Below, one piece after another: positions 9,826-30,006 of a DNA stretch of 41,101 nucleotides. The stretch is from a virus. Each line of letters starts with the position of its first letter. Positions within the stretch are counted from its first letter, which is position 1. The DNA lies in the IMG/VR virus record IMGVR_UViG_3300046718_000830, positions 1-41,101 of that record; one strand, 5' to 3'. Both the position numbers and the translations under genes were made by a program. The notes below the pieces were generated by a model, which was not told the DNA's origin, made no database searches, and saw nothing but the letters and a program-made list of their open reading frames with translations.

Positions 9826-10013
9826 GCGCCAAAGAAGCAGCCGAATGCGTCGGCCATCTTAACGCGGTCGCGTTGGTCCTGATGCGCGACACCAATGCCG
9901 CCAATCCCTTGACCGTGCACTTCCAGGAAAGCTTCCCCGATTCGACACTCGTCAGCGTTGGCACCAAGGAAGTCCGCCAGGACGAATTCATCGCGGAGGA
10001 GGTCACGCCATGA
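9822..10013 (+). CDS. Small hypothetical protein after MuB
   Basis: 63 residues from GTG, overlapping the MuB stop as GTGA and preceded by a full AAGGAGGT ribosome site 3 bases upstream. Sequence such as ALVLMRDTNAANPLTVHFQ and STLVSVGTKEVRQDEF suggests a small beta-rich fold. No family recognised. Confidence 0.65.
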   Translation: MSAKEAAECVGHLNAVALVLMRDTNAANPLTVHFQESFPDSTLVSVGTKEVRQDEFIAEEVTP

Positions 10014-10330
10014 GCCGCCAAATCGAAGACCTCCGCCAGCTCCAACTCGCCCAGCAGAAATGGGCCGAGAAAACCTTCGGCGCTCAGACTGTGCAATCGA
10101 AGATCAAGCACTTCATCCGCGAGGCGCACGAGCTGCTGAAGAATCCCAACGACAAAAGCGAAATGGCTGATTGCTTCCTCCTCCTCCTGGACATCGCCCG
10201 CAAGAGCCAGGTGGACGCCAACATGCTCTTCGAAGCCGCCGTCGCCAAATTCCGGATCAACCAGGCCCGCACCTGGGGACCACCCGATGCCGATGGCGTC
10301 TGCGAGCATATCAGGGAGAACCAGCCATGA
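10010..10330 (+). CDS. DUF550-type (MazG-like) dATP/dGTP pyrophosphohydrolase
   Basis: 106 residues. FIREAHELLKNPNDKSEMADCF, with LLLLDIARKSQ and AKFRINQARTWGPPDADGV, matches the DUF550 pattern: an acidic helix pair for metal and phosphate, then the 'K..IN..R.W' signature. These all-alpha enzymes cleave (d)NTPs to monophosphates. In phages they are thought to adjust nucleotide pools or quench alarmones. Single-domain, about the family's minimal size. ATGA-type overlaps on both sides place it in the early operon. Confidence 0.8.
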   Translation: MSRQIEDLRQLQLAQQKWAEKTFGAQTVQSKIKHFIREAHELLKNPNDKSEMADCFLLLLDIARKSQVDANMLFEAAVAKFRINQARTWGPPDADGVCEHIRENQP

Positions 10331-10747: not shown

Positions 10748-10924
10748 ATGAGCACCCTCACCCGAGACAAGAAGCGCGTCCGACGGCATGCGATCCGCGA
10801 GGACGGCCGTCCGCTCTGCGGCGGTGGCCACGGCGCCCGCACGGCTCAATTCCAGGAGGACCTCGCCGACGACATCAACTGCGCCGCCTGCCTGAAAATC
10901 AAGAATGGGGGGGGCAATCCATGA
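10748..10924 (+). CDS. Small CxxC protein ending at a G8 tract
   Basis: 58 residues. It has two possible metal-ligand sites (LCGGGHGA and NCAAC). A run of eight G's at 10907-10914 encodes the Gly triplet just before the stop. That run lies 6 bases ahead of the next ATG and could serve as its ribosome site. Loss of one G would run this frame into the Gam frame. No family recognised. Confidence 0.55.
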   Translation: MSTLTRDKKRVRRHAIREDGRPLCGGGHGARTAQFQEDLADDINCAACLKIKNGGGNP

Positions 10925-12272: not shown

Positions 12273-12844
12273 AGTGCTTGCGCACTGCCACCATGAAAAC
12301 ACTCACGTTCAATCCGCTCGAAAATCTCCCGGTTGACAACCGCCGCTTCATCGAGCGCTGCATGAGCAAGGGCCTTTGCGCCGTCCGGCCGGATGCCCAA
12401 TTGCCCGTGCCACAACCCTCCCTCCAGGGGTCCCGGCCCATTCGGCGCGAACTCGATGCGCGCATCCAGAGCCGGCCCCGGCTTAACGAGGGTCAAATGC
12501 AGACCCTCTTCGCGGTCCTGCGTCCGTTGGCGGCGCGGACCTTTGGCGTCGAGGAAACCTGCTTCGATAAAAAGCGCATCGCCGGCCCGTTCCACGATCC
12601 CTGGCTTTGCCTCCTGTTGCTCAGCAAGGAATTCAGCGGCCTGACGAACGATGAACTCGGGATCTCCCTGAAACGCCGCGGCACCTGCGTATCCCATGCG
12701 CTGCGCAACGCGGAATACCGGCTCGTCAATGATCATCGCTTCGCCGACCGCTTCACCGCCCTCCACGCCCGCGCCGAATCCGGCCTCCAGGCCATGGGCT
12801 TGATTCCCAGCTCGCTAACAAATCAACAAACCAAAACATCATGA
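12269..12844 (+). CDS. DnaA-domain-IV-like helix-turn-helix protein
   Basis: 191 residues from an ATGA-coupled ATG; an internal ATG at 12293 is an alternative. The C-terminal ~60 residues (about 108-165) read DPWLCLLLLSKEFSGLTNDE, LGISLKRR, then GTCVSHALRNAEYRL. This parallels the DnaA DNA-binding domain, where '(D)HTTVxHAxRKIE' is the recognition signature. The N-terminal half is unrecognised and has no AAA+ motif, so this is not a DnaA initiator. It may be a middle-gene regulator taking Mor's place, or a competitor for host DnaA boxes. Both are inference. Confidence 0.65.
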   Translation: MKCLRTATMKTLTFNPLENLPVDNRRFIERCMSKGLCAVRPDAQLPVPQPSLQGSRPIRRELDARIQSRPRLNEGQMQTLFAVLRPLAARTFGVEETCFDKKRIAGPFHDPWLCLLLLSKEFSGLTNDELGISLKRRGTCVSHALRNAEYRLVNDHRFADRFTALHARAESGLQAMGLIPSSLTNQQTKTS

Positions 12845-12966
12845 ACGACACCGACATCGTCGCAGTAATGCATCAGCTCCTCGCCAGGCGGACCGCTGAA
12901 CTCGAAGAACTGAAAACCCTCATCGCCAGCGCGGAGAAAATGTTCGGGGGGGGGGCAGCCCATTAA
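12841..12966 (+). CDS. Short coiled-coil ORF ending at a G10 tract
   Basis: 41 residues: MNDTDIVAVMHQLLARRTAE, a leucine-zipper-like helix (LEELKTLIASAEKMF), then GGGAAH and stop. The leader is A/C-rich with no Shine-Dalgarno sequence. The glycines are encoded by the homopolymer at 12946-12955. If one G is lost, or the ribosome slips +1, the frame continues into the DNA-binding ORF at 12974-13423, so this may be the N-terminus of that protein. Confidence 0.55.
   Translation: MNDTDIVAVMHQLLARRTAELEELKTLIASAEKMFGGGAAH
12946..12955 (+). repeat. G10 homopolymer at a gene junction
   Basis: Ten consecutive G's, the longest homopolymer noticed here. It is followed by CAGCCCATTAA. With ten G's the upstream frame stops at TAA (12964-12966); with nine it fuses to the downstream frame. 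It may be a phase-variable switch, a slippage site, a ribosome-binding G-run or a sequencing length error. Confidence 0.7.
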
Positions 12967-12973
12967 CGGCAAA

Positions 12974-13423
12974 GTGAAGACCATCCGCAAATATACTCCG
13001 CGCAAGCACCCGGTCGGCGAACGCGTCAACCATGCCCATCGCCGCGGCCGTCCGCCCAAGGTGCAGACGCCCGCAATCGCTTCAGCGTCGCAGCAAGGTG
13101 GCCGTGCGCAAGCACCCGGCTGGGGCAAGACCCATCCCGAGACCATCCGAATCATGGGCGTCATGGCCAAAATGCCCGAGCCGATCACCGCGCCAGCACT
13201 CGCCCAGGCGGCTGTAGTGTATTTGAAGAAAGCCAGCAATGTGCTCACGCAGCTCTACGGCAAGGGCAAGCTCGAACGGGTTTCGCATGGTCACTTCACC
13301 CGGACCAAACTTTTCGGCCTGGCTGCCACCAAACCGCCCGCCGGCGCCGGCGTCAGCCAGAAGGAAAGCGACTGGCAAAAACTCCGCGGTGAAATCTCCG
13401 TCCCGCGCGATCCAGAAGCCTGA
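12974..13423 (+). CDS. Winged-helix DNA-binding protein, start uncertain
   Basis: 149 residues if started at GTG 12974, where no Shine-Dalgarno sequence exists. An ATT at 12962 (ATTAA overlap with the previous stop, in the place of the usual ATGA) or a frameshift fusion are alternatives. A basic, AT-hook-like linker (HRRGRPPKVQ) is followed by a winged-helix-like part: HPETIRIMGVMAKMPEPITA, PALAQAAVVYLKKASNVLTQ, GKLERVSHGHFTRTK. A candidate middle or late transcription regulator. Confidence 0.6.
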   Translation: MKTIRKYTPRKHPVGERVNHAHRRGRPPKVQTPAIASASQQGGRAQAPGWGKTHPETIRIMGVMAKMPEPITAPALAQAAVVYLKKASNVLTQLYGKGKLERVSHGHFTRTKLFGLAATKPPAGAGVSQKESDWQKLRGEISVPRDPEA

Positions 13424-13426
13424 CCC

Positions 13427-14065
13427 ATGCTCTCGGAATTCCAAACGCCATTGCATTGGAGACTCTGGGGCGAAGTCTGCCGCAAAAATCACTGGCATGA
13501 TGTTGGCGGCCGCGTGGCGGACGAAGCGCAGCTCACGCGCAATACTTCCGATTATCACCGCACCGTCTGGGCCTTCGCCGAGATGCTTGCTCGCCAGGGC
13601 AATAGGCCGGTGGTCGCTGACCACCTTCGCAAAGGCGCTTATTGCGACATGCTCGCCCGGCCCAAGAGCCTCACGCAGTTCGACAACGCCGATCTCGACC
13701 GCGTGCTGGTGCTTTTCCGATTACTCATCGAGCCCGCGGACCTGACGGCCGGGAAGGATTACGCCGCCTACAAGGAATATGACCGCGTCAAAGCCGAGAT
13801 CGCCCGCTGCCGGCATCTCAAAGTTCCCTGCGCGCTCACGCTGCCGGACGATCCGGGCCAGCGCCGGCGCATGCTCAACTCCGTCAAGCATGCGCCGCTC
13901 GCCCTCGTCAATTATTTCCTGCGCCAGGAGACCGAGTATTTCCTGACCATGGACTATGAGTCATTGCCATTGGCGAAACTCCATAGCCTGGTCCGCACGT
14001 TGAAAAACCGCCGCGCCGAGTTCCACCGTCCCGTCCATCACGCCCATGTCGAGGAACCTTTTTGA
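13427..14065 (+). CDS. Hypothetical protein of the middle region
   Basis: 212 residues, ATG 4 bases after the previous stop. Mostly helical: HRTVWAFAEMLARQGNRPVV, FDNADLDRVLVLFRLLIEPA, then KEYDRVKAEIARCRHLKVPC. It ends LPLAKLHSLVRTLKNRRAEF. The place is that of Mu gemA/gp16-type genes, but no clear GemA match is seen. No catalytic motif and no membrane segment. Role unknown. Confidence 0.65.
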   Translation: MLSEFQTPLHWRLWGEVCRKNHWHDVGGRVADEAQLTRNTSDYHRTVWAFAEMLARQGNRPVVADHLRKGAYCDMLARPKSLTQFDNADLDRVLVLFRLLIEPADLTAGKDYAAYKEYDRVKAEIARCRHLKVPCALTLPDDPGQRRRMLNSVKHAPLALVNYFLRQETEYFLTMDYESLPLAKLHSLVRTLKNRRAEFHRPVHHAHVEEPF

Positions 14066-18147: not shown

Positions 18148-18423
18148 ATGAATCTGGAACCCAAAATGCGCGAGCAGGTCAGGCTCTGCCTCCTGCGTTA
18201 TCTCGATGTGAGCTGGCCCGCGGCAATCCCCCGCATGCTGATCGTTCAATATCTTCGCGGCGACGGCTTCAACCTCGACGCGAGCGGCGTTGCGACGGAA
18301 CTCGGGCAACTGCGCGAGAAGGGCCTGGTCAAGCAGTCGGAGAACAAAATCGCCCGCGAAATGGACCTTTGGGAAATCACCGAGGACGGCCGGGCGCTTT
18401 ATGCCGATCTGGCGAACCGATGA
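18148..18423 (+). CDS. Winged-helix phage protein (VpaChn25_0724-type, Mu gp26 position)
   Basis: 91 residues with AAGGA upstream. Helices with MREQVRLCLLRYLDVSWPAA and ATELGQLREKGLVKQSENKI, ending in a wing (MDLWEITEDGRALYADL), make a compact ArsR-like winged helix. This small family sits between DUF2730 and DUF3486 in Mu-like phages, as here. A DNA-binding role near packaging is likely. Confidence 0.75.
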   Translation: MNLEPKMREQVRLCLLRYLDVSWPAAIPRMLIVQYLRGDGFNLDASGVATELGQLREKGLVKQSENKIAREMDLWEITEDGRALYADLANR

Positions 18424-18954
18424 ATGAATACACCCAAAAAGCCCAACGCGAATTCGCCATTGCAAATGCTGCCGGCGGAACGGCAGGCGCAAATCATCGA
18501 TTGGCTCAACACCCGCAGCATCGAGGAAACGCGCAAGCAGCTTGCGGCCGATGGCTTCCAAACCTCTGCTGGTGCCTTGTCGGAATTTCGCAACTGGTGG
18601 GAAGCGCGCCAGCTATGGAAGCAGGACAAGGAGCTTACCGACCAATTCAAGGAATGGCTGGAGGACTACGATCCGGCGCTTTCCAAGGAGAAGGTCAACG
18701 AAGCTGGCGACCTGATGTTTCTGAAGCTCGCCATCAAACGCCAGGACAACCTCGAATGGGTTCGCATCCGCAGGGAAGGAACACGCGACAGCATGGCCGC
18801 CACGGCGAGGCGTGCGATCAATCGGAAAGAAATCGGGAACTTCATCAAATGGTATTCGGACACGAAGGTCCGGGAAACCCTGGCGGGCGACGACTCGAAC
18901 GATGCCAAGACCGAAGCCCTCGGCCGTCACATTTTCAAGGAGGATTGGGATTGA
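18424..18954 (+). CDS. DUF3486 small terminase subunit (Mu gp27-like)
   Basis: 176 residues. MLPAERQAQIIDWLNTRSIE, then ETRKQLAADGF and SAGALSEFRNWWEAR, form the N-terminal DNA-binding part typical of DUF3486. A helical oligomer-forming domain follows. It recognises phage DNA and hands it to the large terminase during head-full packaging with host flanks. AAGGAGGA within its end serves as the ribosome site for the next gene. Confidence 0.82.
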   Translation: MNTPKKPNANSPLQMLPAERQAQIIDWLNTRSIEETRKQLAADGFQTSAGALSEFRNWWEARQLWKQDKELTDQFKEWLEDYDPALSKEKVNEAGDLMFLKLAIKRQDNLEWVRIRREGTRDSMAATARRAINRKEIGNFIKWYSDTKVRETLAGDDSNDAKTEALGRHIFKEDWD

Positions 18955-20531
18955 GCGCACTCGAAATGCGCCAGGGCCAGCGCCGGTTTTTCAAACTGGT
19001 CGAGGAGCACCGCATCTGTGCCGGCGTCATGCGCCGCCAATACGGCAAGACGACGGTCGTCTCCAAGATCGCGCTCAAGAAAATGATGAAGCGCAAGGAT
19101 CACACCATCATCTTCGGCAGCGCCAAGCTCAACCTCGCGCGTGAAATCGTTCGCAAGGAGGCCTTCGTGATCCAGGAAGGCATTCGCTCCTTCCAGGCCG
19201 AGCTGCAGGCCAACGGCAAACGGCTGCAGGTCGCCCAGGTGGATGTCGAAAAAGTTCCGGACAAGCTCGACGCCGATGCCTTCGCCGAACTTTTCGAGGC
19301 GCAACGCCTGGAATTTCGCTACTACCACACGGCCGGCAGTTATTCCCGGACCAAAGTCGTCGCGCTGCTGCCGGACACGGTCGGCGAAACCGGCGATCTG
19401 ATCTGCGACGAAATCGGCCGGGTTAAAAACTTTCGCGAAGTCTGGGAAGCCATCGAGCCGATCATTGTCAGCAACCGCACTTACCGCTGCATCCTGATCA
19501 CCACGCCGCCGCCCGATGACACGCATTTCTCCTTTGAATTTCTCGCGCCGCCGCCCGGCTCCATTTTTCCAGTGGACCCGGCTGGAAACGTTTATGAGAG
19601 CGAACTCGGAATCACGGTCCTGCGCGTGGACGCATTTGACGCTTTCGCTGACGGCGTCGAGGTTTACGATTCCGACAAGGGCGAGCCACTCACGCCCGCG
19701 GAGCATCGCCGGAGAGCGCACGACAAGGATGCCTGGGACCGCAATTATGGCTGCAAGTTTGTCATCGGCGGGACCGCGGCTTGCGACCTGGCGCTGATGG
19801 GAGTTGCCCAGGAACGCGGAGTCGGCAAATGCGAATGTTTCCAGATCGAGGACGACGCGGATTTTCTGGCCGGGCTCAATTGGCTCGCGAAAAATATTCA
19901 CCCGGCCAACCGCATTGGGCTCGGGCTGGATGTCGCCACGACGACGAACGAGACGAGCAATCCCTCCGCATTTTCCATTGCCGAACAGGAAGGCGCGGAA
20001 ATCCTGGTCCGCGCCATCTTCGCCTGGAAGACGCGCGATCCGGATGTGGCGATGGAACGCATCGAGGCGCTCATTCGCATTGCCTCGGCCCGGCCGGGCG
20101 GCCGGCCGCGCGGCCTGGCGATTGACGCGACCAACGAGAAATACTTCGCCGAGGCGGTTCGCAAAAAGTTTCGGAACATTCTCCCGGTCCATTTGATCGT
20201 CGCCAGCGAGAGCTTTGAAAAACCGGGCCTCGACAAGCCGACGAACTGGAAGGAATACCTCGGCAGCCAATACGTCGGCATCCTCGATGATAACCATCTC
20301 ACGCTGCCGCCTCAATCTTATGTGAAGATGGACCATCGCCTGGTCCGGAAGGATCGCGGGAAGTTTGTTTGCGAACCTTCGCCCGAAGGCTGGCACGGCG
20401 ACACTTTCGACGCGAGCAAACTGGCGGTCCATGAGTTGATCGGTAAGAGCGGCCCATTCACTTATACGCCGGTCATTATTCCCGGCCGCAATCCTTCACG
20501 CATCAACCGAAGACAGGGGCTCCTGGTATGA
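18951..20531 (+). CDS. Large terminase subunit (Mu gp28-like)
   Basis: 526 residues from TTG 18951, chosen because AAGGAGGA lies 5 bases upstream and the start overlaps the previous stop. ATPase motifs: a Walker-A-like MRRQYGKTT (residues 27-35) and Walker B LICDEIGR (D153, catalytic E154). A motif like the SAT coupling box is TTPPP. An RNase-H-like nuclease domain starts around IGLGLDVATTTNETSNPSAF. It cuts and pumps DNA into the prohead. Confidence 0.9.
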   Translation: MSALEMRQGQRRFFKLVEEHRICAGVMRRQYGKTTVVSKIALKKMMKRKDHTIIFGSAKLNLAREIVRKEAFVIQEGIRSFQAELQANGKRLQVAQVDVEKVPDKLDADAFAELFEAQRLEFRYYHTAGSYSRTKVVALLPDTVGETGDLICDEIGRVKNFREVWEAIEPIIVSNRTYRCILITTPPPDDTHFSFEFLAPPPGSIFPVDPAGNVYESELGITVLRVDAFDAFADGVEVYDSDKGEPLTPAEHRRRAHDKDAWDRNYGCKFVIGGTAACDLALMGVAQERGVGKCECFQIEDDADFLAGLNWLAKNIHPANRIGLGLDVATTTNETSNPSAFSIAEQEGAEILVRAIFAWKTRDPDVAMERIEALIRIASARPGGRPRGLAIDATNEKYFAEAVRKKFRNILPVHLIVASESFEKPGLDKPTNWKEYLGSQYVGILDDNHLTLPPQSYVKMDHRLVRKDRGKFVCEPSPEGWHGDTFDASKLAVHELIGKSGPFTYTPVIIPGRNPSRINRRQGLLV

Positions 20532-21298
20532 CGCGCACCAAACCGATCCTTCGCTGGCCCGGCGGCAAGAGCCGGCTGCTGCCGAAGTTGATGCCGCTGA
20601 TCAAACCGCATATCTGTTACGTCGAGCCCTTCGGCGGCGGCCTCGCGCTGCTGCTGGCGAAGGAACGCAGCAAGGTCGAAGTCATCAACGACATCAACGG
20701 TGACCTGATCGCGCTCTATCGCAATGTCCAATATCACCTGCCGGAAATTCTTCGCGAAGTGGATTTCATCCTCGGCTCGCGCAAAAACCTGAGCGACTTC
20801 CTGCAGCAGCCGGGCCTGACCGAAATCCAGCGCGCAGTCCGTTTCCTCGCCCGCAACAAAACCTCCTTCGGTTCGAACATGAAGGATTTTGCCATTTCGA
20901 GGACCGGCGGGGGCGGCGGCGGATTTTCGCGCGAGGGCAACGCGGCCCTTCTCGGCGAGGCACACAAGCGGCTCGACCGCGTGACCATCGAGCATCTGCC
21001 ATACGAACGCATCCTCAAGCTCTATGATTCAGCGGGGACGTTTTTCTTCCTCGATCCGCCCTATGTCGGCTCGAAGCTGAAGACCTACTCGGCTTGGACG
21101 CCCGAGCAAATGAAGGAGCTGCGAGAGCGCCTGGCGGCCGTCCGCGGCAAATGGTTGCTGACGGTGAACGGCAGCGAAGACAATCGCCGGCTCTTCAAAG
21201 GCTGCCGCATACGGGTCACTCAGACCGAAAACCGGGCACTGAATGTCCGCACTCACGGCGGCCAAACCTTCCCCGAGTTCATCATCACCCCGAAATGA
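20528..21298 (+). CDS. D12-class DNA adenine methyltransferase (Dam-type)
   Basis: 256 residues. RWPGGKSRL (9-17), EPFGGGLAL (33-41), VINDINGDLIALYRN, and the catalytic DPPY (176-179) define the MethyltransfD12 family. It transfers methyl from S-adenosylmethionine to N6 of adenine. All key motifs are intact. It is inserted between large terminase and portal, an unusual site, with 4-base overlaps on both sides. It is likely an acquired gene for protecting phage DNA from restriction or marking packaged DNA. No partner endonuclease is seen. Confidence 0.9.
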   Translation: MTRTKPILRWPGGKSRLLPKLMPLIKPHICYVEPFGGGLALLLAKERSKVEVINDINGDLIALYRNVQYHLPEILREVDFILGSRKNLSDFLQQPGLTEIQRAVRFLARNKTSFGSNMKDFAISRTGGGGGGFSREGNAALLGEAHKRLDRVTIEHLPYERILKLYDSAGTFFFLDPPYVGSKLKTYSAWTPEQMKELRERLAAVRGKWLLTVNGSEDNRRLFKGCRIRVTQTENRALNVRTHGGQTFPEFIITPK

Positions 21299-21465
21299 CG
21301 ATTCGCGCACAAATGCCCCAGGACGTAAAAGCTGCGGTCATGCCCGCGTCGGCGACGCAAGATGCCTGCACAATAGGCGCGGCACGGCGCAGCGACCAAG
21401 GATTTGCAAGCCGCGGTCGTCATGATGGGAAATTTTTGCCCGGTTTGGAGGTGCCTCGTGGCTGA
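21295..21465 (+). CDS. 56-residue micro-ORF between methylase and portal
   Basis: ATGA-coupled to the methylase; its 3' end overlaps the portal start by 8 bases and contains that gene's GGAGGTG ribosome site. Product MTIRAQMPQDVKAAVMPASA..., without recognisable domain, ending basic. It may exist only to carry ribosomes to the portal gene. Confidence 0.4.
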   Translation: MTIRAQMPQDVKAAVMPASATQDACTIGAARRSDQGFASRGRHDGKFLPGLEVPRG

Positions 21466-22993
21466 GGCCGCTGTTGCCATCCTGCCGAAGCAATCGGTCG
21501 CCACGCCGGAAAGGGTCCTGCTTTCCATCCGGTCGCGCTTCAACCCGATCCGCAACCTGACGCCGGACCTCCTTTCGCGTTATCTCGACCAATTCCGGCT
21601 TGGTTACTTCCGCGAGCTGGCGATCACCTGGGACGCCATGGAGCGGCGCGACACCCGGTTGCAGACGGTTGCACCGAAACGGAAGAAAGCCGTCGCCCGG
21701 CGCGGCTGGGAGATTTTAGTCACCGACGACACGCCCGAGGCGCAAAAGCAGAAGGAAGTTCTCGAATACTTCTTCAACAACGTCTCGGCGACCTCCGCGC
21801 TCGAACCCAACGAGCAGGGCGGCCTCTCGCTCCTCGTCCGGCAAATGATGGATGCGGTCGGCAAGCGTTACGCCGTCCATGAAATCGTCTGGCAGCCTTC
21901 GCCCAATGGTCTGACCGCGCAATTTGTTTTCTGTCCGCTCTGGTGGTTTGAAGGGACGACCGGCCGGCTGCGTTTTCTCCAACAGGAATTCGCACTGCAA
22001 GGCATCGACATGCCGCCCGAGCAATGGCTCGTCACCGTGGGCGACGGCATCATGGAAGCCTGCTCGGTTGCCTACATCTTCAAGCACATGTCGCTGAAGG
22101 ACTGGGTCGCGTTCTCCGAAAAGTTCGGCCTGCCCGGCCTGCTCGGCAAGACAGATGCCGGCATTGATTCGCCGGAGTGGAACGCGATGAAGGATGCGTT
22201 AGCTGGCTTCGCCACCGATTGGGCGGCCGTCTGCAATTCCTCCGCCTCGATTGACCTGGTCGAGACCAAGACCCAGGGCAATCAGCCGTTCGAACCGCTG
22301 GTCGAACGCATGGATCAGGAGATGACGCGGCTCTGGCGCGGCGGCGACCTCGGCACTTCGTCGCAGAAGGATTCCGTCGGCGCGACACTTCAAGGCGACG
22401 AAACCGCCGTGCTCGAAACCGACGATGCGCAATGGATCAGCGAAACGCTGAACCGCATTTCCGAGCAGGTCCTCGAATACACCTTCGGTCCCGGCGTCGA
22501 ATGCCTGGCTTACCTCAAGATCACGGTCCCCGAGAAAAAGAATCTCGAACTGGAATTGAAGGTGGATGAATTCCTGCTTAGCGCCGGCGCGCCGCTCGCG
22601 TTGCAGAACCGGCTGGAATTCTACGGCCGCCCAGTTCCCGATGCTTCGGACGAACTCCTGCAGGCGCCCGCAGCTCCCGCAGCACCCACCGACCCATCGC
22701 TCGTAAATCCGGTGGCCCTGCGCAAGCAGTCGGAAATCGCAAATGAAGCGGCCCAGGCAGAAGCCCTTGCCAGAGCAGTGGCCTCCGATCTCGAACCACT
22801 GCGCCAGCGCCTCGACGCGGTCCTGCGCATCGCCGATCCGGAGCTGCGCGAAATCAAGCTGCGCAAATTGCTGGCCGATTTCGAGCAGCTCAAGAGCGAC
22901 ATCCTGGCCGATCCAAGTTCCGCCGCCGAAATCAATTCCATCCTCGCCCGCGCCTTCGTCGCCGGCGCGGAAAATAAACCCACGCTCAAATGA
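21458..22993 (+). CDS. Portal protein, DUF935 (Mu gp29-like)
   Basis: 511 residues from GTG 21458, with GGAGGTG 5 bases upstream; a longer frame opens at 21404 but lacks a ribosome site. Family features: RYLDQFRLGYFRELAITWDA, MERRDTRLQTVAPKRKKAVA, then RGWEI, and later FKHMSLKDWVAFSEKFGLPG. Forms the dodecameric ring through which DNA passes. The C-terminus (from about 435) is Ala/Pro-rich, then helical. Confidence 0.9.
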   Translation: MAEAAVAILPKQSVATPERVLLSIRSRFNPIRNLTPDLLSRYLDQFRLGYFRELAITWDAMERRDTRLQTVAPKRKKAVARRGWEILVTDDTPEAQKQKEVLEYFFNNVSATSALEPNEQGGLSLLVRQMMDAVGKRYAVHEIVWQPSPNGLTAQFVFCPLWWFEGTTGRLRFLQQEFALQGIDMPPEQWLVTVGDGIMEACSVAYIFKHMSLKDWVAFSEKFGLPGLLGKTDAGIDSPEWNAMKDALAGFATDWAAVCNSSASIDLVETKTQGNQPFEPLVERMDQEMTRLWRGGDLGTSSQKDSVGATLQGDETAVLETDDAQWISETLNRISEQVLEYTFGPGVECLAYLKITVPEKKNLELELKVDEFLLSAGAPLALQNRLEFYGRPVPDASDELLQAPAAPAAPTDPSLVNPVALRKQSEIANEAAQAEALARAVASDLEPLRQRLDAVLRIADPELREIKLRKLLADFEQLKSDILADPSSAAEINSILARAFVAGAENKPTLK

Positions 22994-24198
22994 AAATTCA
23001 CTTCTTTCCAACCATGGGTCGACGCACCTCCTCGTTCGCGAACACTGATGAATCGATGGCGGTCGCCACGTTCACGAACGAGCTGAGCGTCGGCGCCGAT
23101 GGCTGGGCGCAGCTCGCGCCCTTCGGCGATTATCCCGGCCGCGCGATGCTTCGCCAGGCGGACGGTTCCTGGAAATTGTTTCCAGCGCTCCAGAAGCTCG
23201 ACCGCCCGGCCGCCGAGGCGATGGTCGCGAAGTTCAAAACTCCCTGGCAAACCATCAAGCGTTACGTCACCGGCTGCCCGATCTATGTCGGCCATCCCGA
23301 TGTGCCGGCGTTTGCCAATGAATATCCCGATAAGGTTTCGAAGGGGATGATCACCGACCTGCAGGTCCGCGACGACGGACTTTATTGCAAACCGATTTTC
23401 ACGAATGAAGGCAGCGACCTGGTCGAGAACAAACGCTATCGCGCCTTCTCCGGCTATTGGACCGCTGATGCGACCGGCGATTCCGCCGCTGATGGCAAAC
23501 CGATTTTCCGCCCTGGACTTCTCAAGTCCGCCGGGCTGACCAACAACCCAAACCTGCCCGTTCACCTGATGAACGAGCAACAAACGAAAGCACCCGACAT
23601 GAAGAAAATCATTGCGTGGCTGGGCGGGCACGGGATCACCGTCGCCAACGAAGCCACTGAAGAGCAGGTCGAAGCCGGCCTCAAGCAGCTCGACCCCAAG
23701 ATCGCCAGCATCGCCACACTCAACACCGAGAAGACGACGCTTGCGAATGAACGAGACGGCCTGAAGGTCGCAGTCGCCAACAGGGACACGACGCTCCAGA
23801 CCCTCAATCAACAGGTGGCCGCCGCGCAAGCGGCCTTCGCGAATGAGCGCAAGGCGCGGATCGACGGAATCCTGGATACCGCCGTCACAGCCGGCCGCAT
23901 CACACTGGCGCAACGTCCCGAGTGGGCGACGAAGCTCGCAGTCGAAACCAACTTCGCGAATGAGTCCGACGCGCTCTCCAAGCTCGCGCCGGCGATGAAC
24001 ACCACCTCGAAGACGCTGCAGATGGGCGACCGCAAGGTGAGCATCGCGAATGTGTCGGATCGCCGCGAGGCGGTGCAGACGCTCGTAAAGACGGAAATGG
24101 AAAGCAGCAAAAGCGATTACGACACCGCCTTCGCCCGCGTCCAGAAAAACAACCCGGCCCTCTTCGAGGCCATGAAACCCGCGGCTGCGACCGCCTGA
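22990..24198 (+). CDS. Mu I-like prohead protease with scaffold domain
   Basis: 402 residues, ATGA start. The N-terminal half carries the protease-family pattern (WKLFPALQ, YVGHPDVPAFANEYPDKVSK, GMITDLQVRDDGLYCKPIFT, NKRYRAFSGYW, FRPGLLKSAGLTNNPN). From about residue 205 the protein becomes helical with a coiled coil (TLNTEKTTLANERDGLKVAV), like a scaffold. In Mu the scaffold Z is made from an internal start of gene I; in-frame ATGs at 23569 and 23599 lie at the right junction here, though neither has a good ribosome site. Confidence 0.85.
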   Translation: MKIHFFPTMGRRTSSFANTDESMAVATFTNELSVGADGWAQLAPFGDYPGRAMLRQADGSWKLFPALQKLDRPAAEAMVAKFKTPWQTIKRYVTGCPIYVGHPDVPAFANEYPDKVSKGMITDLQVRDDGLYCKPIFTNEGSDLVENKRYRAFSGYWTADATGDSAADGKPIFRPGLLKSAGLTNNPNLPVHLMNEQQTKAPDMKKIIAWLGGHGITVANEATEEQVEAGLKQLDPKIASIATLNTEKTTLANERDGLKVAVANRDTTLQTLNQQVAAAQAAFANERKARIDGILDTAVTAGRITLAQRPEWATKLAVETNFANESDALSKLAPAMNTTSKTLQMGDRKVSIANVSDRREAVQTLVKTEMESSKSDYDTAFARVQKNNPALFEAMKPAAATA

Positions 24199-24244
24199 AC
24201 GCCCTCAACCACCGACGACAAAAACAACTGACCGATTCCAAATT

Positions 24245-24751
24245 ATGAACTTCACGCTCACTCAAATCATCGTGGCCTGCCTATTGCTGGCCTCCATTGC
24301 GCTGCTGGCCTGGCGCGCGCGCAAACCGAAAGTCCACTTCGCGAACATTGCGGAGGGGAGGCGCGCGACCGGCAATCGCAGTTACCTGGCTGATGCCGCC
24401 ATCGCGACGCGTTTCTTCGTCGTGAAACAGGGCAGCGACGCCGATCACATCGCCGCCTCGGCCGCGAACACCGACATTCCGCTCGGCGTTTGCACTGATG
24501 AACCCACTGCGGCCGAGGAATCCGCCAACGTGGCGATCTTCGGCGCCGCCCAGGGGACGATCAAGGTCGTCGCCCAGGCGGCCATCACCGCCGGCGCTCT
24601 CGTCCAGAGCAACGGCGATGGCAAGATCATCACCCTCAAGGCGACGACCGGCACCTGGTATATCCTCGGCCGCGCCATCACGGCCGCAGCCGCGGACGGC
24701 GATGTCATCGAAATCGCCCACTGCGTCCCGGTCCAGCGCGTCGTTCCCTGA
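24245..24751 (+). CDS. Head decoration/capsid-cement protein with N-terminal membrane helix
   Basis: 168 residues. Residues ~30-168 look like the DUF2190/cement fold (ADAAIATRFFVVKQGSDADH, IPLGVCTDEPTA, VVAQAAITAGALVQSNGDGK). The N-terminus adds LTQIIVACLLLASIALLAWR, a clear membrane segment or signal anchor absent from usual cement proteins. The leader is A/C-rich without a Shine-Dalgarno sequence. It directly precedes the capsid gene, the usual place. Confidence 0.7.
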   Translation: MNFTLTQIIVACLLLASIALLAWRARKPKVHFANIAEGRRATGNRSYLADAAIATRFFVVKQGSDADHIAASAANTDIPLGVCTDEPTAAEESANVAIFGAAQGTIKVVAQAAITAGALVQSNGDGKIITLKATTGTWYILGRAITAAAADGDVIEIAHCVPVQRVVP

Positions 24752-24806
24752 TCCGCAACCCTGAGCCCAAACAATCAACCAACAATTCCCGATCCAAACA
24801 CTGAAC

Positions 24807-25802
24807 ATGAAAAATTCCACAATCATAACCGCCGAGCCGGACTTGATCCTGCCCGACCGCGGCGCCGGCTATCAGGCCGGGCAAATCCTCTTCGCGAACG
24901 ACTCGCGTTTCGTGGGGACTTACTTCTCCGAACCGCTCACGACTTACGCCGTGGGCTGGCGGGACCCCAACGACATCGAGGCCACGCTCAACTTCATCGC
25001 CCCGCCGGTGAACGTCGGCCGCCGCTTCGAATGGAAGAAGGCGAATAACGCCGAGGAATTCCTGTCGGAGACCATTGACGACGAGCGCGCCATCGGCTCG
25101 GACTTCAAGGCGGTCGAATACACGCAGACCGACGTCACGGACAAGACCCTCAACAAGGGCCTGACCTACATCGCGGACCTCGACAACGTCACCGGCAACT
25201 GGCAGGCGGATAAAACCGCGAAGCTGATCCGCCGGCTCTACCGCAATGAGCTGCGCCGCGGTTTCACGGCCCTGCTCGCCGCCGCCACCAACCAGGCTTT
25301 GACCTGGGACACCAGCTCCGGAAAGAATCCGGACCGCGACCTGCTGACCGATCTGATCACCGCGACGACCGCGACCGGCGTCCGGCCCAATCGCGTCATA
25401 TATGGCGACACGGCCTTCAACAAGCGCGGGCTGAGCTATGAAGCCCAGACGACCTCGACCGCCTTCGGCCAGATCGCCGCGTTGAGCATCGAACAAATCG
25501 CCCAGCGATTGATGGTGGACCGCGTGTTGGTCAGCAAGGAGCGCTACCAGAGCGGCGCCGCGGCCAAGACTGAAATCCTGTCGAACCTGGTCATTGCCTT
25601 CTTCGCCCAGGACGGCGTGGACACCGAGGACCCCTCGCACATCAAGCGCTTCCGTTCCGCATTCGATGCCGAACAGGGCGGCGGCTTCCTCCGCGTTTAT
25701 GTCCAGCAGATCAGCAGCAAGCTGGTCGCCATCACCATCGAGCATTACTCGAAGATCGTGGTGACGTTCTCCACCGGCATCCGGAAGTGGACGATTAGCT
25801 AA
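24807..25802 (+). CDS. Major capsid protein (Mu gene T position)
   Basis: 331 residues. It follows protease and decoration genes and begins the head-shell block. Sequence such as GWRDPNDIEATLNFIAPPVN, NRVIYGDTAFNKRGLSYEAQ and the C-terminal ITIEHYSKIVVTFSTGIRKW suits the HK97-fold capsid of Mu-like phages. The leader (aacaatcaaccaac...) is G-poor with no ribosome site, which may be a way to reach high expression. Confidence 0.82.
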   Translation: MKNSTIITAEPDLILPDRGAGYQAGQILFANDSRFVGTYFSEPLTTYAVGWRDPNDIEATLNFIAPPVNVGRRFEWKKANNAEEFLSETIDDERAIGSDFKAVEYTQTDVTDKTLNKGLTYIADLDNVTGNWQADKTAKLIRRLYRNELRRGFTALLAAATNQALTWDTSSGKNPDRDLLTDLITATTATGVRPNRVIYGDTAFNKRGLSYEAQTTSTAFGQIAALSIEQIAQRLMVDRVLVSKERYQSGAAAKTEILSNLVIAFFAQDGVDTEDPSHIKRFRSAFDAEQGGGFLRVYVQQISSKLVAITIEHYSKIVVTFSTGIRKWTIS

Positions 25803-25821
25803 GCGGTTCGACGAGCTCACC

Positions 25822-26007
25822 GTGCTAACAGCACAACAACGTTCCGCCCGTGCCAGGGTCGCGCGACAGGTAAAAGTCGCGCGGCTCTGCACGCGGCTGG
25901 ACCGGCATGTCATCGCCGCCGAGAAATTCAAACGCGGCGCCACTAAGGCTGCGCACCTCGCGGCGGCGGAACAAACGCGCCAGGAACTTCGAGCCATCGA
26001 TCACTGA
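25822..26007 (+). CDS. Small basic head-region protein
   Basis: 61 residues from GTG. Very basic and Ala-rich: RSARARVARQVKVARLCTRL, HVIAAEKFKRGATKAAH. It lies between capsid and adaptor genes, so it could be a DNA-binding head protein or an unremarkable filler. Start and function uncertain. Confidence 0.5.
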   Translation: MLTAQQRSARARVARQVKVARLCTRLDRHVIAAEKFKRGATKAAHLAAAEQTRQELRAIDH

Positions 26008-26010
26008 CGC

Positions 26011-26472
26011 ATGCCCGCCTGGATCACCATCACGCTCGCTGACCTGAACGACTACCTGGTCGGCGCGCAGGTCACGGCCATCAACACGGCCGCGCGGGCC
26101 TCGGGGCAGACGGACCGCTTCACCGGCGCGATGACGGATGCCGTCAACCGCATCCGGCTCAAGATCGCGAGCTGCAAGACGAACCAGTTGAGCGCGACGC
26201 CGCTCACGGTCCCGCCCGAGCTGAAGATGGCGGCCTGCTATTTCACCATCGAGAGCATGCAGGCGGCGATCCCCGGCCTGAAGCTGACCGACGACCAGAA
26301 GAAGAAGATCGAGGTCCTCAACACGGACCTGAACCGGATCGCCGATTGCAAGGATGTCGTCTCGAAACCTGAGGACCCGGAGAACCCGAGCGAGGCGCAA
26401 CGCGGCGCGTCGTTTGAGAAGGTGAGCGGAGAAACGCGGCGCGCAACGCGCGGCAAGCTGAGCGGATTGTAA
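26011..26472 (+). CDS. DUF1320/gp36-like head-tail adaptor
   Basis: 153 residues. WITITLADLNDYLVGAQVTA, TDAVNRIRLKIASC and PPELKMAACYFTIESMQ follow the layout of DUF1320 adaptors: a helical bundle beginning 'xxxDLxxYL'. A charged Pro/Glu tail follows (KPEDPENPSEAQRG). Adaptors join the portal to the tail. The order after the capsid fits Mu gp36. Confidence 0.72.
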   Translation: MPAWITITLADLNDYLVGAQVTAINTAARASGQTDRFTGAMTDAVNRIRLKIASCKTNQLSATPLTVPPELKMAACYFTIESMQAAIPGLKLTDDQKKKIEVLNTDLNRIADCKDVVSKPEDPENPSEAQRGASFEKVSGETRRATRGKLSGL

Positions 26473-26735
26473 TGTTTATGCAGCAACAACGCATAATGCC
26501 AGGGCGAATATTCGCCGCCCTGCAATTTCTCGACTATACGCGCGTCGTCACTGCCGGCTATGGCGATGAAACCGTTCCAGGCAAGGGCACACGCGAACTG
26601 CATGAGAAGGAAAAGCGAGTCAAGGACGCCGCACTGCAGGTGCTGCTGGAATATTTCCAGGCTGATGGCGATGACGATGCGGCCGGCGCCGCGGGCGATC
26701 CCGCTCCAAATCCACAAGTCCCCGTTCCCAAATGA
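26472..26735 (+). CDS. Small head-tail region protein
   Basis: 87 residues. The start overlaps the previous stop (TAATG). A helical middle (RELHEKEKRVKDAALQVLLE) and an acidic, Pro-rich tail (ADGDDDAAGAAGDPAPN). No family recognised. Confidence 0.6.
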   Translation: MFMQQQRIMPGRIFAALQFLDYTRVVTAGYGDETVPGKGTRELHEKEKRVKDAALQVLLEYFQADGDDDAAGAAGDPAPNPQVPVPK

Positions 26736-27532
26736 ACTTTTTCGCGGAAGCATTGAAGCACCTGATCAGCAAAAAGATTCTGCCGACTGATTTGTCATCA
26801 GCCGAGGTCCGCCAGATCGATGCTTCATTGCGCCGGCAATCGCTATTTTCCGCGCGGACGACGCTCACGGATTATCTGGAGGACATCAAGGCCTCGGTCG
26901 AAAGCCTGGTCAACCCGAAGACGAACACGCGCGAGGATCGGAAGACGGCCGCTAACCCGGAGGGCAAGGTCACCGAGGGGCTGAACCCGGCGACGGCGCG
27001 TGAAACTTTGCGGGACAGCTTGAAGAGCCGCGGTTACCTGGCCGGCGAGGACCTCGGGACAATCAAGGACCTGGCGAGCGACGCGCGGCTCAATCTCATC
27101 ATCAAGACCAACACCGAGCTTGCCCAGGGCGCGGGTCATTTCGCGCAGCAGAATTTGAATGACGACGTCGTGGACCTTTACCCGGCGCTGGAGCTGGTCC
27201 GCTTCGAGGACCGCAAACAGCCGCGTGATTGGGAAACGCGCTGGAACCTGGCCGCGCAGGTTGCCAACGACCCCGCTGCAGCCGGGGTGCTGGAACGCAG
27301 CGGCCGCATGGTCGCGCTCAAATCCTCCGGCATTTGGGACGCCCTCGGCGATGGTGCCGGCGGATACATGGACACGCTCGGCAATCCTTATCCGCCTTTC
27401 GCCTTCAATTCCGGGATGTGGACGCAGGACGTTTCCCGCGCGGACGCCGAGGAACTCGGCTTGCTCGACCAGGGCGAGGAAGCGAAACCCGCCGCTTTTG
27501 ATTTAGGCAGTCTTTTTTCCATCAGCACATGA
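26732..27532 (+). CDS. Minor head protein (Mu F / SPP1 gp7-like)
   Basis: 266 residues, ATGA start. LNLIIKTNTELAQGAGHFAQ, then ALELVRFEDRKQPRDWETRW, parallels the head-morphogenesis domain ('xxxDxNTxxAxAxGxxxQ ... R.TxxxxP...H'). In Mu, F lies next to the portal; here it is displaced past the capsid and adaptor genes. It probably sits in the head near the portal. Confidence 0.68.
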   Translation: MNFFAEALKHLISKKILPTDLSSAEVRQIDASLRRQSLFSARTTLTDYLEDIKASVESLVNPKTNTREDRKTAANPEGKVTEGLNPATARETLRDSLKSRGYLAGEDLGTIKDLASDARLNLIIKTNTELAQGAGHFAQQNLNDDVVDLYPALELVRFEDRKQPRDWETRWNLAAQVANDPAAAGVLERSGRMVALKSSGIWDALGDGAGGYMDTLGNPYPPFAFNSGMWTQDVSRADAEELGLLDQGEEAKPAAFDLGSLFSIST

Positions 27533-27756
27533 CCAACAAAACACAATTCAACGGGACGGTGAAAATGTTCAACGAGCTGAAGGGCTTCGGCTTCATCGAA
27601 TGCAAGGAGCGGAGCGGCGATACCTTTGTTCACATGTCCCAGATCCGGGGAGCAGGAGGGAAGGTCCTCCACAAGGGCGATCAGGTCTCCTTCACAGTCG
27701 GTCAGGGCCGCAAAGGTCCCGAGGCCCAAAACGTCACCGTCAATTTGCGCGCATGA
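27529..27756 (+). CDS. Cold-shock-domain protein (CspA-like)
   Basis: 75 residues, ATGA start. A full cold-shock fold: FNGTVKMFNELKGFGFIE with RNP1 (KGFGFIE, 18-24) and RNP2 (TFVHMS, 32-37). The conserved Trp in 'KWFN' is Met here (M13). It ends EAQNVTVNLRA, the usual terminus. CSPs bind single-stranded RNA or DNA and melt structure. It is locked between a minor head gene and a tail-completion gene by 4-base overlaps, so it is made with the virion proteins. Confidence 0.9.
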   Translation: MTNKTQFNGTVKMFNELKGFGFIECKERSGDTFVHMSQIRGAGGKVLHKGDQVSFTVGQGRKGPEAQNVTVNLRA

Positions 27757-28367
27757 TTGCCTACGACGCCAGCGTCAAGGACGGAGCCACGCCGAGTATC
27801 CGGCGCCTGGCGTCCGCGCTGACGCCGCGTCGTCTCAATGCCACGGTCGGCCCGGCCGCAACGAAGCTCACGCAAAAGCATTTGCTCGCCAATCCGCCGA
27901 ATAAGCGGGGATTTCCCACGACGAACTTTTGGTCGCGCGCTGCCAAGGCGACGAACTGGGCGGAGACGAACGAAGGCCCGCGGGTCTCTATCGCGCAGAT
28001 CGGCATGCGCCAGCGTTATCACGGCGGCGTCATCAAACCTGTCAATGCGAAGGCGCTGACGATTCCCGTCGCGGCCGAGGCTTACGGCAAAACGGCGGCG
28101 GATTTCGGCGGGCAATTGAAACTGGTTGTCATTCCCGGCAAGGGCGCATGGCTGGCGAAGGCGAGTTTCGAGGACCGTTCGACGGGCTCACAGCGGGGAC
28201 GCAAGAAACTGCAAGGGCCGGGCCTTTCCACGGTTCGCCAGCGGTTGAAGTTCCTTTTCCGATTGAGCGCCGGCGTCAACCAGGATGCCAACCCGCAAAT
28301 CATCCCGACCACCGATGAATATGGCGACACCGGCATCAAGGCCATCCAGGAGGCGCTGCCAACATGA
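27753..28367 (+). CDS. Tail-completion/virion-morphogenesis protein (Mu gpG-like)
   Basis: 204 residues from the ATG at 27753 that overlaps the cold-shock stop. It begins with SIRRLASALTPRRLNATVGP, then LTQKHLLANPPNKRGFPTTN and IGMRQRYHGGVIKP. This follows the pattern of Mu gpG-type proteins, which have a basic helical start and the 'xxIGMRxxxHxGG' box. It likely joins the tail tube to the head connector. Confidence 0.7.
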   Translation: MIAYDASVKDGATPSIRRLASALTPRRLNATVGPAATKLTQKHLLANPPNKRGFPTTNFWSRAAKATNWAETNEGPRVSIAQIGMRQRYHGGVIKPVNAKALTIPVAAEAYGKTAADFGGQLKLVVIPGKGAWLAKASFEDRSTGSQRGRKKLQGPGLSTVRQRLKFLFRLSAGVNQDANPQIIPTTDEYGDTGIKAIQEALPT

Positions 28368-29059
28368 CCACCGGTATCCTTGATTCCATTCAGCAGGAAA
28401 TAGCCGATTTGATTCTGGCCGATCCTTTCTTTGAGGACATCGCGGTCCTGACCGAGCATACGAAGGAAATCGAGAGCGAGATCAATCGCGCGCTCGGGCC
28501 GCTGAACGAAAGAGGCGGCAAGATCGGCGCCGTCGTCATCGTGCTCACGCCCCAGGCCAAGATCAGCTTCAAGGACGTGTTCGGCCCGTTCTTTGACGAC
28601 ATCAAAGTCGTCGCCCTGGTGAGCGTGAATCCGACCGTCAATAACGACGCGAGCGGCACGGGCAAGACCGCCTCGGCCATCGCCGAAAAAGTCGCGACGG
28701 TGGTCCACCAGCAAACGGTCAATTCCTCGAACGGTCCCGTCGTGGCGGATGATCCAGGCATTACCACGATTGAAGACGAGTTCGATTCGCGCAACGTGCA
28801 TTTCCGGACTGCCGGCGGCGTGGCTACCGCGCCGCCGCAGGTCGCAACGCCGATCATCGCCGAAGACCACGGCGCATTTACGATCACCTGCGCCACGCCT
28901 GGCGCGGCCATCTTCTACACTTTGAACGGCAAGAACCCGGTCCCGCGCGTCGGGACATTTTACTCCGCGCCATTTTCCGCGGGCAGTGACCTCACCCTCA
29001 AGGCCCGCGCCTGGCTCGCTGGATACATCGCCTCTGAAACCGCCCAAACCACCACCTGA
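28364..29059 (+). CDS. Tail terminator/gp37-like protein with chitobiase-like C-terminal domain
   Basis: 231 residues. The first ~150 suit DUF1834-type tail-terminator proteins (IQQEIADLILADPFFEDIAV; KEIESEINRALGPLNERGGK; KVVALVSVNPTVN). From about residue 165 a small beta domain reads CATPGAAIFYTLNGKNPVPR, then FSAGSDLTLKARAWLAGYIA: the chitobiase/hexosaminidase C-terminal motif ('IYYTxDGxxP...Y..Pfxl...xxxkArAf..G'). That extra domain probably decorates the virion or binds sugars. Confidence 0.72.
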   Translation: MTTGILDSIQQEIADLILADPFFEDIAVLTEHTKEIESEINRALGPLNERGGKIGAVVIVLTPQAKISFKDVFGPFFDDIKVVALVSVNPTVNNDASGTGKTASAIAEKVATVVHQQTVNSSNGPVVADDPGITTIEDEFDSRNVHFRTAGGVATAPPQVATPIIAEDHGAFTITCATPGAAIFYTLNGKNPVPRVGTFYSAPFSAGSDLTLKARAWLAGYIASETAQTTT

Positions 29060-29061
29060 TT

Positions 29062-30006
29062 ATGCCCACTCCAGTTCTCCCCACCCTCATCATCGGCCCG
29101 GCCATCATCCTTCACAACGGCAAGGCGTTTTATTCGAAGGACGGATTGAAAGTTGAGAACAAACGCGAGACGTTCAACATCGAAACCGACTTCGACGGCA
29201 AGATTGATGAGCGCATGAAGTCGCAGATGACCGAGCTAACCTGGACTCCCGATGGCCAGGTCTCGGACCTGAATAAATATTTTCCCTACGCCGTCGCGGA
29301 CGTGGGCTCCTCGATCTTCGGCGCGTCGCCAAAGACCGTCGTCATCCACACGAAGGCCGGGCAGACCATCACCTTCCCGCGCGGCGCGATCTCCAAGCTG
29401 CCGCAACTTCGATTGAAACCGACCGACACGCTCTTTGGCGACATGACGATCACCTGTCTCGGGGTCCCGAGCGTGCAGCCGGCCGCCGCGAATACCTGGA
29501 AGACGATTGCCAGCGCCAGCTTCACCGACGCGAGCTTCGATGAAACCAAGATTGTCACGGATATTTACCGCGCGGCCTATGGCTCGACGCCTTACGACGT
29601 CATCGGTTCGCTGGCCGGCTTCGAGATCGACATCGCGATGGACTGCGAAACAATTGACTCGGACGATTTCGGCCACACCGAAATGGTCCTCAAGTCGTTG
29701 ACGGCCTCGGCGAAGTTCGCGCCGAACAACCTGACCGAGGCGCAGGTGGACACGCTGCTGAACTTTCAATCCACCAACTTCGTCTATCCCGGCCAATCGC
29801 TCTCGAAGTCGAACACGGACCTGGTCATCGCCGGCAGCGGCAATAACGGCCTGACGCTCACCGCCACCATCAAAAAGGCCGGGCCGAAAGGTTACACGTT
29901 CATGTATTCGACCGGGAAGCATCGGCACGACGCGGTCGAGTTCAGCAGCAAGCGGACGTGGACCGCCGGCGTCGCGAACGAGCTTTTCACCCTGGCGATC
30001 ACCTAA
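29062..30006 (+). CDS. Major tail tube protein
   Basis: 314 residues. A beta-rich pattern with paired domains: FNIETDFDGKIDERMKSQMT, ELTWTPDGQVSDLNKYFPYA, later SLTASAKFAPNNLTEAQVDT and YTFMYSTGKHRHDAVEFSSK. The place just after the terminator and before small tail genes, with no sheath gene nearby, suggests a siphovirus tube. The length is near double the common tube size, as if it contained an extra domain. Confidence 0.68.
   Translation: MPTPVLPTLIIGPAIILHNGKAFYSKDGLKVENKRETFNIETDFDGKIDERMKSQMTELTWTPDGQVSDLNKYFPYAVADVGSSIFGASPKTVVIHTKAGQTITFPRGAISKLPQLRLKPTDTLFGDMTITCLGVPSVQPAAANTWKTIASASFTDASFDETKIVTDIYRAAYGSTPYDVIGSLAGFEIDIAMDCETIDSDDFGHTEMVLKSLTASAKFAPNNLTEAQVDTLLNFQSTNFVYPGQSLSKSNTDLVIAGSGNNGLTLTATIKKAGPKGYTFMYSTGKHRHDAVEFSSKRTWTAGVANELFTLAIT

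Follow-up and report, generated by a model that had tools for sequence, protein, structure and literature searches.

The best-described counterparts of the locus reported here are the pilin loci of B. breve, in which G-tracts lying between two ORFs vary in length by replication slippage (bbr_0113, bbr_1889; PMC9187656). In particular, one of these loci was found as 93.4% G10 and 6.5% G9 and the other as 37% G11, 59% G12 and 3% G10, and the deposited tract length can be the minority one (PMC9187656). Intragenic G or C homopolymers also shift the reading frame in the contingency loci of Neisseria and Campylobacter, mostly surface or modification genes, and prophage-related genes and transcription factors are among the new phase-variable candidates in Neisseria (PMC5084427, PMC6321876). 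A different way of joining two frames is the programmed frameshifting of phages, as in the tail assembly chaperones (PMC5009743). No phage regulator under homopolymer phase variation was found in the open-access literature searched. The locus described here, from an uncultured Mu-like virus of Verrucomicrobia, is nearest to the B. breve loci: there 10-11 Gs separate two ORFs that give one protein at the right length, and both genomes are GC-rich. It differs in that the B. breve product is a bacterial surface pilin whose tract was measured to vary, whereas here a phage probable DNA-binding protein is concerned and the tract is present at one assembled length. With Neisseria and Campylobacter it shares the frame-shifting homopolymer inside a gene, although the variation of those loci is seen from strain to strain and in deep reads (PMC5084427, PMC6321876); with the tail assembly chaperones it shares two frames, a possible joined product and a location in a phage operon.

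The window, i.e., the whole stretch of DNA analysed, is an IMG/VR virus record of 41,101 bases. By gene content it is a Mu-like transposable phage, as it encodes a Mu-type portal (Portal_Mu, E 8e-62), a Mu-type I protease (Mu-like_Pro, E 2e-16), a Gam-like protein (Phage_Mu_Gam, E 2e-17) and a transposition ATPase (AAA_22/TniB match) whose gene is placed after a transposase-like gene. The 711-aa transposase-like protein had no match in Pfam; the transposase profile had none in genomes, and its matches in IMG/VR were L002, L003 and L004. Relatives of the portal in genomes belong to Verrucomicrobiota-type bacteria, the closest being Pedosphaera MAGs (63-66% identity). Two short contigs of IMG/VR (L006, L007), recovered from other metagenomes (3300046529 and 3300046517), are 100% identical to window positions 19776-25520 and 20049-29109; thus the virus recurs and has been sampled at least three times. 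Both contigs end short of the tract discussed below. The window also carries an early gene matching dATP/dGTP pyrophosphohydrolase (10010-10330; PF04447, E 5e-17) and a D12-class adenine methyltransferase gene between the terminase and portal genes (20528-21298). Between two early genes lies a 46-nt inverted repeat of the CGCAAAG/CGCAGAG type (14087-14132/14294-14339), whose arms are 161 nt apart and 74% complementary; it may be a small repeat element that was inserted there.

In the early region, a run of ten Gs, a slip-prone length, lies between two ORFs in such a way that one base switches the frame (Table 1). As the preliminary description had stated, the run as assembled stops ORF1 after 41 codons, and with nine Gs the frame continues into ORF2: deletion of one G by script yields a single open frame of 193 aa (...EKMFGGGQPINGKVKTIRK...), the ORF2 frame being open from the tract onward. 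Equally borne out was the statement that ORF2 has no ribosome site of its own, since no Shine-Dalgarno-like sequence is found at the usual distance from its GTG. The tract itself is Shine-Dalgarno-like, although its 18-nt distance from that GTG exceeds what a normal start allows; an ATT codon lies 6 nt from the tract.

Table 1. Features at and around the G10 tract (positions in the window).
Feature	Position	Strand	Basis or remark
Upstream gene, same operon	12293..12844	+	stop overlaps ORF1 start (ATGA)
ORF1, putative N-terminal half, 41 aa, predicted helix 3-35, ending ...EKMFGGGAAH-stop	12841..12966	+	open frame
GGAG (12933-12936) and ATG (12940, ORF1 frame), just ahead of the tract	12933..12942	+	sequence only
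G10 homopolymer at the putative hinge, frame break	12946..12955	+	sequence
ORF2, putative C-terminal half, 149 aa from GTG, RRGRPP then winged-helix-like domain	12974..13423	+	open frame
Downstream gene, same operon, beginning 3 nt past ORF2	13427..14065	+	alignment

Runs of this kind are rare. Under a first-order Markov model, 0.03 G runs of at least 10 are expected in the window, and a set of 79 related loci from Verrucomicrobial phages and prophages (1.21 Mb) contained no G or C run of at least 10 and twelve of 8 or 9. Of the Gly codons in the main genes of the window, 12.5% are GGG, which makes three in succession expected about 0.2% of the time. When the tract and its flanks were searched in IMG/VR with variable length, no other contig was found to carry them. 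A 58-aa zinc-ribbon-like protein of the window (10748-10924) has a shorter run close to its end, the in-frame G8 at 10907-10914, and the ATG (10921) of the next small ORF follows this run at six nt; the relative of this protein in L003 has an in-frame G9 (10497).

Two lines indicate that ORF1 and ORF2 are, with high probability, the halves of one gene. The first is codon preference: ahead of the tract the ORF1 frame scores +0.48 per codon, past it the ORF2 frame scores +0.35, and the other frames are negative. The second is a homologue encoded in one frame, which the preliminary description had proposed as a check. A search of 320 genomes, from the order of a Pedosphaera MAG, returned L099:1195-1986, a single ORF of 263 aa in a related Mu-like prophage; this is a distant homologue and not the same virus, on a contig where the ParB-like and ATPase genes of the window have relatives as well. 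Residues 2 to 159 of the joined product could be aligned (29% identity, E 7e-6), and the alignment crosses the tract, with FGGGQP in the joined product opposite FGAGGNP in L099. Past the tract, L099 has the same RRGRPP motif and the same winged-helix-like end, while the ORF1 part scored 40 against its N-terminus, a value reached by none of 500 shuffles (mean 19.4, sd 4.1). L098, likewise encoded in one frame, also has the RRGRPP motif and the C-terminal domain, but with a different N-terminus. The switch of the coding signal at the tract, together with L099, thus favours the split-gene reading and sustains the earlier proposal that the two ORFs form one coiled-coil, AT-hook-like and winged-helix-like protein: very probably one ancestral gene is present here with one base too many at the tract. 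No homologues of ORF2 were found in the IMG/VR, phage and plasmid collections, and the family profile had no match in 384 genomes of the class or, with two different lead sequences, in IMG/VR. A helix-plus-winged-helix-like ORF of L003, taken up as a homologue from its position, was not supported as such by profile and pairwise scores and is an analogue only, and most matches among L086-L097 and L100-L105 were judged to be due to chance (internal stops, low-complexity matches).

The joined product is probably a DNA-binding protein, in which a dimerising helix would be followed by a Gly-rich hinge, then by an AT-hook-like linker (RRGRPP) and finally by a winged-helix-like domain. This architecture is read from the sequence and the homologue, as the N-terminal helix alone was modelled with fair confidence: a single-sequence AlphaFold model gave helix 3-35 (pLDDT 72-82) and little else (mean pLDDT 53.9), and was poor across the winged-helix-like part. 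The modelled input skipped one base at CATT, which makes residues 39-42 slightly unlike the G9 product. ORF2 matched no named Pfam or PHROG family, and its winged-helix label is owed to weak matches, namely MarR-type chains (E 0.8), HTH_Crp_2 (E 0.005, with L098) and a PHROG transcriptional regulator (E 0.002, with L099).

The layout of the start signals bears on two ways in which the ten Gs could be part of normal expression. In one, the G run would act as a ribosome site for coupled re-initiation, so that ORF2 is translated alone and two proteins are made. Shine-Dalgarno-like G runs do occur in these phages, e.g., the G8 of the window ahead of ATG 10921 and, in the prophage contig L109, both a G8 and a G10, which lie three nt upstream of ATG 8492 and four nt upstream of GTG 8583, respectively. 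Here, however, the distance to the GTG is long and a suitable distance offers only the rare ATT codon, and the homologue is one protein with an N-terminus matching ORF1, which makes re-initiation very improbable. In the other, RNA polymerase or ribosomes would slip on the run and some joined protein would arise from the G10 gene. Frameshifting on G runs is known, for instance on seven Gs in the herpesvirus thymidine kinase (PMC5009743). In the present case a +1 (or -2) shift would be required, and the RNA fold of 12930-13040 is no better than that of shuffled sequences (z = -0.19). Known sites of +1 frameshifting have a short spacing from a Shine-Dalgarno-like sequence, unlike the GGAG here, which ends 9 nt ahead of the run. 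Unlike the tail assembly chaperones, the locus has no recognisable stimulator and no conserved two-ORF layout, L099 and L098 each being in one frame. Programmed slippage, which the preliminary description had entertained, is thus weakly disfavoured, as L099 needs no shift to make the whole protein, and slippage during expression is altogether improbable.

A further explanation is that the tract was miscounted, i.e., that the true DNA has nine Gs and an intact gene, the extra G having been introduced in sequencing or assembly. Short-read data are prone to error at G runs of at least 8, and database G-run lengths are often wrong (PMC11140927, PMC9187656); moreover, singletons whose relatives are fused are expected, according to a survey of frame breaks across prokaryotes, to result from sequencing errors (PMC3711429). 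The sole full-length homologue, L099, is intact, and implausibly long C runs occur in other Verrucomicrobial assemblies (G228, G004). On the other side, the 18.9 kb of the window for which homologues exist showed no other gene split between frames, and the frame is kept through the G8 at 10907-10914; both points are weak, as an error would be confined to the longest run. The lack of other split genes therefore argues against decay in general or an assembly that is poor throughout, and not against a local miscount, which we consider unlikely while taking it seriously. Two multi-frame queries within the 18.9 kb were explained, one by an antisense match and one by a terminase-portal joined ORF in L002. 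In the latter record (IMGVR_UViG_3300022237_000016), one ORF of 1141 aa covers relatives of the terminase (18369-20531) and portal (21404-22993), which are separate genes in the window, unlike in L002.

The split gene sits in the early operon, downstream of the TniB/MuB-like ATPase and the Gam-like gene. Its upstream neighbour had no family match; the downstream one has distant relatives in L002, L003 and L004 (18-27% identity by alignment), with no family match and none when used as an IMG/VR probe. Given this position, and as nothing was found tying the gene to the lysis/lysogeny decision, the earlier suggestion of a lysis/lysogeny switch found no backing. L002, L003 and L004 each have a different gene at the position of the split gene, which means that the gene is dispensable in the group and is compatible with plain loss of function, i.e., a one-base insertion that became fixed in such an early gene on its way to decay. 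Yet both codon preference and motifs are preserved past the tract and no premature stop interrupts ORF2, so that the break would be recent or tolerated, and a G run is readily reversible. Loss of function is quite unlikely on this evidence.

The best reading, to which we give a probability of about 0.48, is that the ten Gs are a naturally slip-prone tract of variable length, joined at G9 and split at G10. The phase variation suggested in the preliminary description is compatible with the data. It is based on the one-frame homologue, the switch of the coding signal, the lack of any other split gene and a tract that is long, pure and rare, as well as on the G10 and G11 runs between two ORFs in B. 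breve, which vary in DNA (PMC9187656). Under the variable-tract reading, the codons of the hinge would have been turned into a pure G run, and runs this long gain or lose a base at a high rate in DNA replication. Virus and prophage copies would then be a mixture, G9 being joined and G10 or G11 split. G9 copies would make the whole protein, and G10 copies, the split state represented by the assembled copy, would make only the 41-aa helix peptide, the DNA-binding part being made poorly or not at all. In the G9 form only, the GGAG and ATG just ahead of the tract might provide an internal start for a short product lacking the helix.

A related lead comes from L109, the contig of the prophage in which the L099 homologue is encoded. 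Its early region (L109:8481-10165) holds a G8 (8481), a G10 (8569) and a C9 (10157) within 1.7 kb. The G10 lies between MSILAAISPTARELL...SGGG and ...HHHALKVHVKLTDTKTLCG...IGPANCKRC, again with one G too many, and the two flanking frames correspond to one ORF in L004 (...AISPTARQLLL...HHKVHAERQDGQPLCGGG...IGPVNCAACLGI). The L109 run may therefore split a second gene. It may also be only a start site, as the stretch beside the run is non-conserved and a GTG with an overlapping stop follows 4 nt after it. The implausibly long C runs of G228 mean that its tract lengths need care. It would be a speculative and rather unlikely generalisation at this point that Mu-like phages of Verrucomicrobiota turn early DNA-binding genes on and off heritably by slippage on G runs.

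Collectively, these data make the split phage gene a new candidate case of homopolymer phase variation, a process well known in bacteria. If the tract does not vary, the locus illustrates how a single miscounted base in a homopolymer leads to a false gene pair in viral databases. If it does vary, a phage would carry a contingency switch of its own, placed in a regulator-like gene, and the phylum concerned is one with few studies of such loci.
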